Notes under the pieces: generated by a model | Databases searched by the model: none | The model's input: the letters and a program-made list of their open reading frames with translations, nothing else | Told to the model about the DNA's origin: nothing | Assembly: GCA_018400915.1 (NCBI GenBank) | Contig: JAGYLW010000007.1 | Span: 1-37,768 of the forward strand | Reading direction: 5' to 3' | DNA from: Fidelibacterota bacterium | Lineage (GTDB): Bacteria > Fidelibacterota > Fidelibacteria > Fidelibacterales > Fidelibacteraceae | Length of the DNA stretch: 37,768 bases | Program-made: the position numbers and the translations under genes | In this document: positions 14,719-23,775 of the stretch, in pieces | How the letters are laid out: every line of letters starts with the position of its first letter | How positions within the stretch are numbered: the stretch's first letter is position 1

Positions 14719-15488
14719 GTGATGCGAAAGCAACATTTTCCCGCCCCCGGAAAGAGGCACTGAAGACTCCCTTTTATTTTTTCTCCGATACGCATGTTTC
14801 AACCCGCAGAGGGCATGAACAGCAGAAACGCATGGACAGGCTGACCTTACGCCTGCAAAAGATAGAAAGAACAGGGGGTACGCTCTTCATTCTCGGAGAT
14901 TTTTTCGATTTCTGGTTTGACTGCCGGAATTATGTTCCCGAAACGCTTAAGCCTCTTGTCCGCACATTGTCGGATCTCCGGGAAAGAGGCATTGAGATCC
15001 ATTTTATCGGGGGGAACCACGATTACTGGGTACGCGGGTATTTAACCCGCGAGCTGGGAATCCATTTTTATCCGGAAGCGGTCTCTTTCCGCTTTGCCGG
15101 AAAGGCTTTCTATTGTCAGCATGGCGACGAGGTCGTCTATAATCACCCCCTTTATCCGTGGATCCGGAAAATATTGCGGGCTCCCTTGTTTATCGCACTC
15201 CTGAAATGCCTTCCGGCACCATGGATATACGCACTCGGTGAAAGGGTCAGCCACTACAACCGCGCATTGACCCGCATTCCCCGCGTACCGGAAAAAGCCG
15301 TGGACAAAATGCGGGGTTTTCTTCACCGTAAACTGGAAAACGGTCATGATCTGGCGATCAGCGGGCATGTGCACCGACCCTGCCTGGAAGAAAAGGACGG
15401 AAAGAGCATGGTGATCCTGGGAGACTGGATCCATCACTGCAGTTACGGGATCTGGGATGCATCCGGATTCCGCCTTATCCGGGAATGA
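14700..15488 (+). CDS. lpxH: UDP-2,3-diacylglucosamine diphosphatase-type metallophosphoesterase
   Basis: A calcineurin-like phosphoesterase with all metal-site motifs: YFFSDTHVS, LGDFFDFWFD, GGNHDYW, QHGDEV and SGHVHRP, with final GDWIHH. This combination, with the NHDYW and GDEV details, fits LpxH, which cleaves UDP-2,3-diacylglucosamine to lipid X and UMP at the inner membrane in lipid A synthesis. Two starts are possible: ATG 14700 (AGAGGA 12 bases upstream, GGAG too close) or ATG 14715, which overlaps the malQ stop as ATGA. Homologues start close to the first strand, so either only changes a nonconserved tail. Other metallophosphatases of unknown substrate share the fold, so the exact substrate is likely, not proven. 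Confidence 0.85.
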   Translation: MRGKSMSDAKATFSRPRKEALKTPFYFFSDTHVSTRRGHEQQKRMDRLTLRLQKIERTGGTLFILGDFFDFWFDCRNYVPETLKPLVRTLSDLRERGIEIHFIGGNHDYWVRGYLTRELGIHFYPEAVSFRFAGKAFYCQHGDEVVYNHPLYPWIRKILRAPLFIALLKCLPAPWIYALGERVSHYNRALTRIPRVPEKAVDKMRGFLHRKLENGHDLAISGHVHRPCLEEKDGKSMVILGDWIHHCSYGIWDASGFRLIRE

Positions 15489-17257
15489 GAACAATGAAAA
15501 TAAGCTGCAGGATATTCATTGTGATACTGTTTGTCCCTCTCATGGTCGCAAGGGGCTACGGGGCCGATACGACGATGGTATACGCCGACCGGCTGAATCA
15601 TTATTACAGGTTCGGCGGATGGAATCATTTTTCCGCCGTTTACAAAAAGCTTTACGTGAATGCCGGGATCAGCAACAGCAGTTCGGTTTACAGTGAAACG
15701 TCAAGGCTGAAGACGCAGACCGATGTGACGGGTGATCTCCTTTACATTCTCTCTCCGCATTTCCGCACGGGACTGACGGCAAAATACTACCTTTTCCGCG
15801 ATGGCCAGAGCTCCCACGCCTATGATTATGACCAGTCACGGTTCGGGCTGAAGGGTGAATACCGAAAAGCGCAGTACAAGGTGATGCTGGAGAGCGGATA
15901 TGCACGGGAAACGCGTCTCGGTATCCGGGATATGGGCTGGTACGGGGGGATGGAACTGTCACGGGACCGCCAGGGGCGCTTGTTTTATCCGGTGCTTGAC
16001 TGGGATTATTCGCAGATGGGTGACCGGCGGAATTATACCTTTGACAATCGCGTCTCTTTCCGTGTAAAAAACCGTTCCTCGTTTAAAAATACGTTCTCGG
16101 CGGGAGTAAAGGCATATAACCGTGAATACTATATCAGCCGGGATGCCGAAACGGAAGAAAGGCTGAACACGACCGCCTATATACGCAACGACCTGTATTA
16201 CCCCCTGCATGAAAATATTGTCCTGGATTACCGCCTGGACCTTTCCGGCAGCAGTGACGGCCTCCGTTTCCAATATGATGACGAGAAGGAAAGCCGTACA
16301 CGCAGGTACCTCGGATTGCGGAACGATCTGCGTGTAAAGGCGAAGCTGGGTGCATTCAGAGGGTATGTCGGTTTTTCCAATGATTATCAGCAGAACCGCA
16401 CCGAGGCGAGCGACCCGGGGATCTCCCTGCCGGCGGATTATATTTTTGATAAAAAAAGCGTGCTCGCACGTTTATCCTGGCGTATTTCCGAAAATGACAG
16501 TCTTTTTGTCGATTATCTTGGATCGCTGCTTTATTACGACACGCCGGATACGAACAATTATGACGACCGCGACGAGCTGACCTATTCCGTCTCGCCGGCC
16601 TGGCATCACCGGGTGGACAACTATACGCACCTGAGCGTATCGGCGAACATGTTCCTGCACCATTATGTGTACCTGTACCGCCAGCGGTCGGCGCAGAATC
16701 ACTGGAACCGCGTTTTTTCCCTCAGATCGGAATTGAACACCAATATTCCCCGGCTGCTTCGCTGGAAAGCCAGACAGGAGATCTATGCCAATTATTTTGT
16801 TTATGACCATGAGGATTCCGCCTTTGTGCATGTGCAGAGCATGGTGTTCCGCGGTTTAAAGCTTCAGCAGAACCTTCAGTGGTTCCTGCATGCGGACTGG
16901 TTCATCAATGCATATGTGTTCTTCCGTCTGGAGGATAACGGGCTGCTGGACTGGGATGATTTCATTCAGAACCGGACCGACAACAGATATACCCTCAGGA
17001 TGGAGCTGAAACCGGGCTACAAGGCAAAATACTTCAGTATTGCCGCCGGACCGGTGTATGCTTTCCGCAGGGATTTCCGGTATACAGGTCCCGAAGATCG
17101 CGAAGAAAGCTTTCATTCACGGCGGATGGGGGGCGCCGTGAACTTTAAATATGCGAACAGGGTCAGTTTTCAGTACCGCCTGGAACAGGTCCGCCAGACC
17201 GGCACCGCAAAGACCTATCATCAGTCGGGCACGCTGCGCTTCAACTGGATCTTTTGA
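15485..17257 (+). CDS. Outer membrane beta-barrel protein of unknown function
   Basis: The product has about 590 residues, with a signal peptide after MRTMKISCR (hydrophobic FIVILFVPLMVA). The body is built of alternating strands rich in tyrosine, arginine and aspartate, ending TLRFNWIF with a terminal phenylalanine, as in outer membrane barrels. I count roughly two dozen strand-like segments, suggesting a large barrel of more than 16 strands; this is a rough reading. I recognise no named family. ATG 15485 overlaps the lpxH stop as ATGA; ATG 15494 is also possible. The lack of a strong ribosome site suggests translational coupling to lpxH. A link to lipid A handling is only positional. Confidence 0.7.
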   Translation: MRTMKISCRIFIVILFVPLMVARGYGADTTMVYADRLNHYYRFGGWNHFSAVYKKLYVNAGISNSSSVYSETSRLKTQTDVTGDLLYILSPHFRTGLTAKYYLFRDGQSSHAYDYDQSRFGLKGEYRKAQYKVMLESGYARETRLGIRDMGWYGGMELSRDRQGRLFYPVLDWDYSQMGDRRNYTFDNRVSFRVKNRSSFKNTFSAGVKAYNREYYISRDAETEERLNTTAYIRNDLYYPLHENIVLDYRLDLSGSSDGLRFQYDDEKESRTRRYLGLRNDLRVKAKLGAFRGYVGFSNDYQQNRTEASDPGISLPADYIFDKKSVLARLSWRISENDSLFVDYLGSLLYYDTPDTNNYDDRDELTYSVSPAWHHRVDNYTHLSVSANMFLHHYVYLYRQRSAQNHWNRVFSLRSELNTNIPRLLRWKARQEIYANYFVYDHEDSAFVHVQSMVFRGLKLQQNLQWFLHADWFINAYVFFRLEDNGLLDWDDFIQNRTDNRYTLRMELKPGYKAKYFSIAAGPVYAFRRDFRYTGPEDREESFHSRRMGGAVNFKYANRVSFQYRLEQVRQTGTAKTYHQSGTLRFNWIF

Positions 17258-17309
17258 GAACAGATCTTCCACGGATTCCACGCCTGCCCCGGTAAAATAA
17301 CGTTAAATC

Positions 17310-17496
17310 GTTGAGTCGTTGAGGCGTTGAGCTGTTGAGACGAAGGGACATAATGACATCGTCATCCCGAACTGGTTTCGGGATCCCCAACATCTGAGGA
17401 CTCGGTTCCGTTTAGCGTTTAAAGAGCATGAATACCCTGCAGCCTCGACCATGTGGAAAGGCTGAATATAATTAGCCCGGTACGAAGTGCCGGGGC
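17310..17496. repeat. Intergenic structured repeat, copy A
   Basis: It starts with four tandem GTTGAGNN units (17310-17341). A hairpin CCCGAA...TTCGGG follows at 17366-17382. Then comes an 88-base block at 17408-17495 matching copy B (17665-17752) at 82 of 88 positions. The block holds a CAGCCT...AGGCTG stem and a small hairpin, CCGGTA-CGAAG-TGCCGG, at 17477-17493. No ORF of interest is present. Together with copy B it fills the 500-base gap after the barrel gene. Confidence 0.85.
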
Positions 17497-17550
17497 TGCG
17501 AAATGTCATCCAACACCCCACAACCCTGAGGTAATCGAAGGGCGGAAGAG

Positions 17551-17753
17551 GTTGAGTCGTTGAGTCGTTGAGAGGTTGAGATGGGGAGACGAAAGAACAG
17601 AGGGACCACGTCATCCCGTCCGTCAGCTGACGGATCGGGATCCCCAATATATGACGACTGGATCCCGTTTAGCGTTTAAAGAGCATGAATACCCTGCAGC
17701 CTCGACCATGTGGAGAGGCTGAATATAATTAGTCCGGCGCGAAACGCCGGGGC
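17551..17753. repeat. Intergenic structured repeat, copy B
   Basis: It has the same order as copy A: four GTTGAGNN units (17551-17582), then an inverted repeat, here TCCGTCAGCTGACGGA (17619-17634, perfect 16 bp, flanked by CCCG and CGGG). The shared 88-base block is at 17665-17752. Its final hairpin reads CCGGCG-CGAAA-CGCCGG, with pair-preserving changes relative to copy A. The copy ends seven bases before the stop of the DUF3467 gene on the minus strand, so it may form that gene's transcript end. Confidence 0.85.
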
Positions 17754-17759
17754 CGTTGA

Positions 17760-18086
17760 TCAATTGGGAACTTTTTTGTCTTCCGGCTGGAAATTCAGTT
17801 TCGGCTGATTGGGATTCTGGACCTCCCTGATCTCCCCGAAATGCTGTTCATAGCGGGAGATATTGGTGGTGAGCGTTTTCATCAGCGCCTTGGCATGCTG
17901 TGGCGAAAGGATAAGGCGTGATACAACGTTCGCTTTCGGAAGGCCGGGAAGCATCTGGCAGAAATCAAGAATGAACTCGCTGGGACTGTGCGTCACGATC
18001 TGAAGATTTGCGTACTTTCCCTCGGCAGTTTTTTCATTGATATTGATCTCAATGCTGCGTTTGGGATTTTCTTTGTCATTTTTCAT
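17760..18086 (-). CDS. DUF3467 family protein
   Basis: The product has 108 residues. The core matches DUF3467: AEGKYANLQIVTHSPSEFIL, DFCQMLPGLPKANVVSRLIL, then SPQHAKALMKTLTTNISRYE and QHFGEI. The function of the family is unknown. Members are small cytoplasmic proteins often seen in Chlorobi, Ignavibacteria and related phyla. The start ATG 18086 lies inside the 3' end of the upstream zinc-ribbon gene (11-base overlap) with GAAG-type spacing, so the two are a coupled pair. The C-terminal 15 residues after QPKLNF are variable. The stop abuts repeat copy B. Confidence 0.85.
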   Translation of the reverse strand: MKNDKENPKRSIEININEKTAEGKYANLQIVTHSPSEFILDFCQMLPGLPKANVVSRLILSPQHAKALMKTLTTNISRYEQHFGEIREVQNPNQPKLNFQPEDKKVPN

Positions 18087-18474
18087 CTTCGTTATCTTCT
18101 TCTTCGAAGTTAAACACGGAATAGTCCTCTTCTTCGTCTGAATTGGATTCCATGTCAGCAATGAACTCATCTTCAATGGATATCATGTTGTCATCCAGAA
18201 AATCCTGGGGATTGTTGTTCTCCACATCGGCAATGTCATGTTCATCATCCATTTCATTGCTTTCATACTTCAGGAAATCATTCCCGAAAAGCGAGGTGTC
18301 GAAAAAATCGACATTATCCACAATACCCTGTTCTACAATGTATTCTAAAAAGTCAATATATTCTTCAGACTTTAAGTTCGTTTTACAATGCGGGCAGTAC
18401 AAACGCTTTCTCAACTGTTGCTTATTCAGGGGCTCACCGCATCTCGGACAAAGTAATTCGTTAAATGAACTCAA
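18076..18474 (-). CDS. Zinc-ribbon protein with long acidic tail
   Basis: The product has 132 residues. The N-terminal 40 carry two CxxC knuckles, CPRCGEPL and CPHCKTNL, which should bind one zinc. After a short helical linker (EEYIDFLEYIVEQG), the last 70 residues are strongly acidic (for example IEDEFIADMESNSDEEEDY) and probably disordered. I chose TTG 18474 because AAAGAGG sits six bases upstream; the GTG at 18522 would place basic sequence of poor conservation value in front and lacks a site. Base composition is more AT-rich than the neighbours. No family recognised. Acidic tails can mimic nucleic acid or bind basic partners; here the only hint of partner is the overlapping DUF3467 gene. 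Confidence 0.7.
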   Translation of the reverse strand: MSSFNELLCPRCGEPLNKQQLRKRLYCPHCKTNLKSEEYIDFLEYIVEQGIVDNVDFFDTSLFGNDFLKYESNEMDDEHDIADVENNNPQDFLDDNMISIEDEFIADMESNSDEEEDYSVFNFEEEDNEDEK

Positions 18475-23604: not shown

Positions 23605-23775
23605 AAATGTTGAGTCGTGGAGTTGTTAATTTGTTAATTTGTTGTTGAGTTGTCGAGACGAAGATGCAATATACATCGTCATCCTGTCCGTCAGCTGACG
23701 GATCAGGATCCCAGTACCTTGCAGCCCTGAGCCTGTCGAAACACCGGGACTGCGAAATGCCATCCCGCTTCCGGC
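23605..23775. repeat. Intergenic structured repeat, copy C (diverged)
   Basis: This copy lies in the 402-base gap between nagB and pepD. It shares with copies A and B a GTTGAG-rich start (here mixed with two GTTAATTT tandem units at 23625-23640), GAGACGAAG, the phrase CATCGTCATCC, and the 16-bp palindrome TCCGTCAGCTGACGGA (23687-23702), identical to copy B. It also shares CTGCGAAATG with copy A. It lacks the 88-base block and instead has CAGCCCTGAGCCTGTCGAA. The remainder of the gap shows no gene. Confidence 0.75.

Follow-up and report, generated by a model that had tools for sequence, protein, structure and literature searches.

The window analysed here, a 37,768-nucleotide stretch at the start of a Fidelibacterota (Marinimicrobia) contig, contains two 88-nt blocks (17408-17495, copy A; 17665-17752, copy B) that are nearly identical and whose few differences partly preserve the pairing of a small hairpin. 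The question raised by this locus is what kind of molecule such paired differences testify to, and what has kept the pairing in place. The preliminary description of this DNA read them as compensatory changes that pointed to selection for an RNA or cruciform structure with a CGAAR loop. Both blocks belong to a repeat island, which together with a relic elsewhere in the window is made up of the following parts:

17258..17759, no strand: the entire repeat island, between convergent genes
17360..17389, plus strand: CGTC-tagged palindromic repeat CGTCATCCCGAACTGGTTTCGGGATCCCCA, upstream of copy A
17408..17439, plus strand: 5′ leader module of copy A (GTTTAGCGTTTAAAGAGCATGAATACCCTG), common to many genomic copies
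17440..17464, plus strand: hairpin 1 of copy A (CAGCCTC GACCATGTGGA AAGGCTG)
17465..17475, plus strand: linker of copy A, AATATAATTAG, with NTAG as a guide-like tag at the foot of hairpin 2
17476..17494, plus strand: hairpin 2 of copy A, CCCGGTACGAAGTGCCGGG, 8-bp stem and GAA triloop (the terminal hairpin of the preliminary description)
17521..17542, plus strand: hairpin 3 of copy A, truncated (CAACCCTGAGGTAATCGAAGGG, 3′ TTG gone); nhmmer partial unit 17515-17550
17609..17647, plus strand: CGTC-tagged palindromic repeat CGTCATCCCGTCCGTCAGCTGACGGATCGGGATCCCCA, upstream of copy B
17665..17696, plus strand: 5′ leader module of copy B, common to many genomic copies
17697..17721, plus strand: hairpin 1 of copy B
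17722..17732, plus strand: linker of copy B, AATATAATTAG
17733..17751, plus strand: hairpin 2 of copy B, TCCGGCGCGAAACGCCGGG, ending 8 nt short of the DUF3467 stop codon (17760-17762; gene on the minus strand)
23715..23740, plus strand: relic of an R1-type unit (start of hairpin 1), behind a CGTC repeat at 23677-23712

Recounted base by base, the two blocks differ at exactly six positions, as had been stated: 17458 (A in copy A, G in copy B), 17476 (C/T), 17481 (T/C), 17482 (A/G), 17487 (G/A) and 17488 (T/C). The pair 17482-17488 changes from A-T to G-C and the pair 17481-17489 from T-G to C-G, so that pairing is kept at both, again as described. The statement that four differences lie in the terminal hairpin holds for those four but falls short as a full count, since position 17476, which pairs with 17494 (C-G in copy A, T-G in copy B), also lies within that hairpin, and five of the six differences are thus packed into 19 of the 88 nt. 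It had also been overlooked that the innermost pair, 17483-17487, is C-G in copy A and is lost in copy B (C/A). The remaining difference, at 17458, replaces a C-A mismatch in hairpin 1 of copy A by C-G in copy B. The repeat extends past the 88 nt, to 119 nt at 90% identity (17378-17496 versus 17635-17753), and is set in a patchwork of CGTC-tagged palindromes and heptads of the GTTGAGTC type. A terminator scan of the island returned one weak site, away from the hairpins. Promoter-like predictions at 17445-17472 and 17702-17729 were not read as promoters because they are due to a TATAAT in the linker, the sequence of which is variable among copies.

The A/B repeat recurs in its genome (1.72 Mb in 204 contigs, 87.7% complete) far beyond chance, with 46 matches by BLAST, 75 units by iterated nhmmer and 74 by a covariance model. 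Each unit consists of hairpin 1 (consensus CARCCC-GA-N..N-GA-GGGYTG), an 11-nt linker ending in NTAG (AAYATNANTAG), hairpin 2 with its 8-bp stem and GNA triloop (CCCGG YRY GNA RYG CCGGG), and a spacer. The four bases before hairpin 2 in 47 units are ATAG (24), TTAG (14), GTAG (8) and TTAA (1). Units stand mostly in head-to-tail arrays, with a commonest period of about 81 bp, and in each of the 40 unit groups all units are on one strand. At the head of an array the form is CAGCC..GGCTG in 31 of 35 cases, and further along it is CAACC..GGTTG in 28 of 30. Since stem type goes with position in the array, a double change that ranks among the two commonest in hairpin 1 amounts to the distinction between hairpin-1 and hairpin-3 types (hp1 and hp3), which relatives show as well, and not a set of scattered independent events. 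On a rough ORF map most copies look intergenic, with convergent neighbours (7) outnumbering divergent ones (3). The family thus has the general properties of REP-like or REPIN-like repeats, being high-copy palindromes with conserved pairing in roughly mapped intergenic positions. An Rfam scan of the window at gathering thresholds returned only a tRNA, so that the repeats match no family there, and a literature search with consensus stretches returned no relevant paper.

The preliminary description would have been contradicted by further copies in which changes break the stem as often as they keep it. Such a pattern was looked for and not seen, in that 97.9% of paired cells pair in 47 distinct units of this genome, against a shuffle mean of 89.5%, and partners slid out of register pair in only 24-47% of cells. 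Cells changed on both sides number 92, compared with a shuffled mean of 32.7, although these counts overstate the number of events because the shuffles leave relatedness in and alleles are shared. Stronger evidence comes from relatives, where stems have diverged widely and 96.7% of cells still pair, with double changes at 15 of 16 pairs; a MAG labelled as another phylum (G245) shows the same pattern at 96.8%. Because both alignments were made by fitting to the model, they are biased in its favour; the divergence with pairing kept can also be read directly, in CCCCGGGTGAAACCCGGGG, CCATGAATGAAATTCATGG, CCGGTGGCGCAGCCACCGG and CCACGGATGAAATCCGTGG. There is therefore strong support for a folded single strand being selected for, or being required for copying.

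As to which strand folds, the GA/GA tandem mismatches of hairpin 1 are kept in 46 and 47 of the 47 copies, the plus strand has 26 T-G pairs against 10 C-A, and the loop of hairpin 2 is GNA in nearly all units, whereas the opposite strand would give TC/TC and C-A mismatches instead. These features favour one folded strand, of DNA or RNA, over a double-stranded cruciform. The proposal of selection for structure accordingly stands for a folded single strand; it does not stand for a cruciform in particular, nor for a known RNA, in view of the Rfam result. The CGAAR loop is not fixed either: the loop is a GNA triloop (GAA in 33 of 47, GCA in 9 of 47) whose closing pair covaries (C-G in 20, T-A in 20, other in 7). 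GNA triloops are very stable in DNA. The folding energy of 111-nt sequences is unremarkable (z -0.7 to -1.6).

The way in which copies A and B came to differ is a separate matter. Their hairpin-2 cores, TACGAAGTG in copy A and CGCGAAACG in copy B, both correspond to alleles found elsewhere in the genome, CCCGGTACGAAGTGCCGGG in 18 copies and CCCGGCGCGAAACGCCGGG in 3, counted over rows with otherwise full CCCGG..CCGGG stems. The recurrence of these alleles, together with the packing of five of the six differences into 19 nt, points to a swap or conversion of the whole allele, and exchange of a whole hairpin is more likely here than stepwise compensation in place. Paired differences between repeat copies thus need not be in-place compensatory mutations when hairpin alleles recur genome-wide.

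A link to transposition came from relatives, in which 41 Y1_Tnp loci were read with their flanks. Perfect hairpins occur at 3.79 per kb beside these genes versus 0.47 per kb further off. A model built solely from units of the window's genome (R1) gave 37 matches in the 41 loci at E<=1 and 30 at E<=0.31; of these best 30, 27 are no more than 600 bp from the gene, where 21% would be expected (p 8e-16, an optimistic value because matches within one locus are not fully independent). Twelve loci contribute to the matches near Y1 genes. At L185, which scores 39.6 bits with R1, at L184 and at both L164 loci, the order is hp1, TAAACGTGAATAA or similar, hp2, hp3 and the ATG, and the mirror order hp3′-hp2′-tag′-hp1′ follows the stop codon, so that inverted copies flank a Y1 HUH transposase gene in these relatives. 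All 38 readable top-scoring Y1 proteins of relatives carry YxxxQxxHH, and hairpins lie on both sides of the gene in 26 of the 38 Fidelibacterota YxxxQxxHH loci. By their Y-x3-Q-x2-HH motif the linked transposases are assigned to TnpAY1 subclass 1.2, and they do not have the RAYT signature. They match NCBIfam NF033573, one of four below its cut-off.

Searches of the window's own genome, which is 87.7% complete, with Y1_Tnp (PF01797) and the TnpA protein of a relative found no Y1 transposase. G004, G006 and G008, which have the most R1 units among the genus relatives, also have Y1 genes, but the hairpins of these genes resemble R1 only weakly and so do not single out the exact cognate enzyme. 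Some R1-bearing genomes, such as G047, have no Y1 match, and the one Y1 gene of G245 has palindromes beside it that are unrelated to R1. Other YxxxQxxHH genes of the phylum (L156, L163, L165, L168 and L170) are flanked on either side by hairpins that are particular to them and unrelated to R1, such as AACCGTTAAAACGGTT with CACCCAACTGAAGTTGGGTG, which suggests many separate pairs of YxxxQxxHH gene and hairpin set.

The full element in relatives reads hp1, AAYRTGAATAG, hp2, about 22-25 nt and hp3, often followed by its mirror image, and mirror-image elements also occur without a gene (L132, L134, L136, L138 and L147). R1 matches at E<=1e-4 were found in 16 of 245 genomes of the phylum, a count from which the filters lose weak matches. 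The MAG G245, labelled Thermoanaerobaculia, has nine mirror-image pairs spanning about 208-236 bp. Mis-binning of a single Thermoanaerobaculia contig (L043) was considered and set aside, as the MAG so labelled has 26 matches on many contigs. In seven of its nine mirror-image elements (L229-L233, L235 and L241) the sequences that lie beyond hairpin 1 likewise form inverted repeats (about 19-63 nt). These contain mismatches, are for the most part different in each copy, and may represent either longer terminal repeats or fold-back duplications.

The island itself lies between a plus-strand gene at 15485-17257 and the minus-strand DUF3467 gene at 17760-18176. The same two genes are adjacent in G002, G003, G004, G005, G006 and G008, with a gap of about 20-150 bp versus 502 bp here, and the junctions of G002, G004 and G005 contain no R1-type unit. 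The short, unit-free junction in relatives suggests that the island was probably gained in this lineage rather than lost in the others. Where hairpin 2 of copy B stands (17733-17762), G002 and G009 have a terminator-like GC hairpin with a T-run.

We think it probable that copies A and B are each a unit of a REP/REPIN-like repeat that is mobile but non-autonomous and is read by a transposase as folded single-stranded DNA. As hairpin units of this kind form the ends of transposase genes in relatives, the paired changes would reflect a mobile-DNA hairpin and not a new RNA. A subclass-1.2 TnpA would bind the hairpins in single-stranded DNA, read the NTAG or TAA tag at the foot of hairpin 2 as a guide, by analogy with IS608 and TnpAREP (PMC6006769, PMC8266576), and cut and rejoin the elements in trans, which would lead to their spread. 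Two things would maintain the pairing, namely that copies unable to fold do not spread and that conversion exchanges hairpin alleles as a whole. The elements of this genome persist in the form of head-to-tail arrays (hp1-hp2-hp3-hp2-hp3 and so on); these are probably remnants or products of slippage, the transposase having been lost or not having been assembled. We infer that the mobiliser of the copies in this genome was likewise a subclass-1.2 TnpA. The chances seem about even for the broader proposal that subclass-1.2 TnpA are the mobilisers of widespread, unnamed three-hairpin miniature elements (hp1-AAYRTGAATAG-hp2-hp3 plus mirror image) in Fidelibacterota and in the MAG labelled Acidobacteriota, with recognition of single-stranded DNA via several hairpins at each end and with TAG/TAA as the guide instead of GTAG.

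The resemblance to REP/REPIN (BIME) repeats and REPtrons (PMC2817692, PMC3116915, PMC3733652) lies in the short GC-rich hairpins with a tag at their foot, in the tens of intergenic copies with compensatory changes among them, such changes being already known among REP copies (PMC2817692, PMC3116915), and, in relatives, in inverted copies around a Y1 HUH transposase gene and doublets as mirror-image elements. Unlike REPs, whose tag is GT[AG]G, the units here mostly have ATAG or TTAG (TAA in some relatives), there are three hairpins per end, the arrays are head-to-tail without mirror copies, which is unusual for REPs, and the flanked transposase carries YxxxQxxHH, not YxxxNP. The Y-x3-Q-x2-HH signature, the HUH motif, the length of about 145 aa and the low copy number agree with TnpAY1 subclass 1.2 (PMC6006769). 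Quentin et al. (2018) described this subclass as mostly from Cyanobacteria and Bacteroidetes and generally without typical terminal secondary structures (PMC6006769), whereas the hosts here are Fidelibacterota and hairpins stand on both sides of most of the genes. As in IS200/IS605, to which the NF033573 matches also point, subterminal hairpins would be the recognition sites; in contrast to that family each end carries several hairpins, arranged in mirror-image order, and copies without a transposase are numerous. Within the searchable literature, both the form with three hairpins and its association with TnpAY1 subclass 1.2 appear to be new. The association suggests a testable role for HUH proteins that had no element in the 2018 survey, and it adds a candidate phylum, in which anatomy and tag are new, to the range of REP/REPIN-type repeats.

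A transcribed structured RNA element that the host retains for its own use, such as a 3′-UTR stabiliser, attenuator or small RNA whose hairpins function as RNA, would account for several of the same observations: the 26 plus-strand G-U cells and the GA/GA tandem mismatches fit RNA as well as single-stranded DNA, hairpin 2 of copy B ends close to the DUF3467 stop codon, and the roughly mapped, mostly intergenic copies favour convergent neighbours. We nevertheless regard it as unlikely, because dozens of dispersed sites require a mechanism of mobility, R1-type units flank transposase genes in relatives, the orthologous junction there lacks the island, the folding energies are unremarkable and no Rfam family is matched. 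Slightly less likely again are canonical GTAG REPs moved by a class-2 RAYT (YxxxNP). Class-2 proteins are present in the genus and the GTAG form of hairpin 2 (8 of 47 copies) comes close to the Pseudomonas mendocina REP GTAGCCCGGATGCAATCCGGG (PMC2817692), but the tag of most copies departs from GT[AG]G, and 20 low-scoring Y1 loci, 15 of them YxxxNP, yielded a single R1 match, whereas YxxxQxxHH genes do have R1 nearby; R1-type repeats flanking a class-2 RAYT, as expected of the GTAG REP superfamily, were thus not found.

That the compensating pair is a coincidence, produced by chance or simple tandem duplication and under no constraint, is very improbable. The window has only two full copies, and these are locally related, as they have in common the 119-nt context and a hairpin-1 allele to which only one other aligned copy (L009) is close; however, dozens more copies keep 97.9% of their pairs, and the same holds in the two other sets. 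attC sites and CRISPR were set aside on anatomy alone, there being no ORF cassettes and no unique spacers between identical repeats, respectively. The reading as a mobile repeat recognised in its single-stranded form is the one we prefer.

The CGTC-tagged palindromes at 17360-17389 and 17609-17647 fit the published type of CGTC, ATCCCG...CGGGAT and CCA (PMC3733652), for which no transposase was known in the 2013 survey, and they are neighbours of the R1 element that lie outside it. Together with the repeat at 23677-23712 they form a recurring arrangement, a CGTC palindrome standing ahead of each of the two full units and ahead of the relic at 23715. Degenerate GTTGAGTC heptad arrays (17302-17339 and 17551-17580) stand in front of each CGTC repeat of the island and also near other copies, such as L013, L014 and L036. 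In some copies (L028:998-1073 and L034:1024-1099) the loop of hairpin 1 contains the palindrome TCCGTCAGCTGACGGA, which has the same core as the CGTC repeat at 17609.
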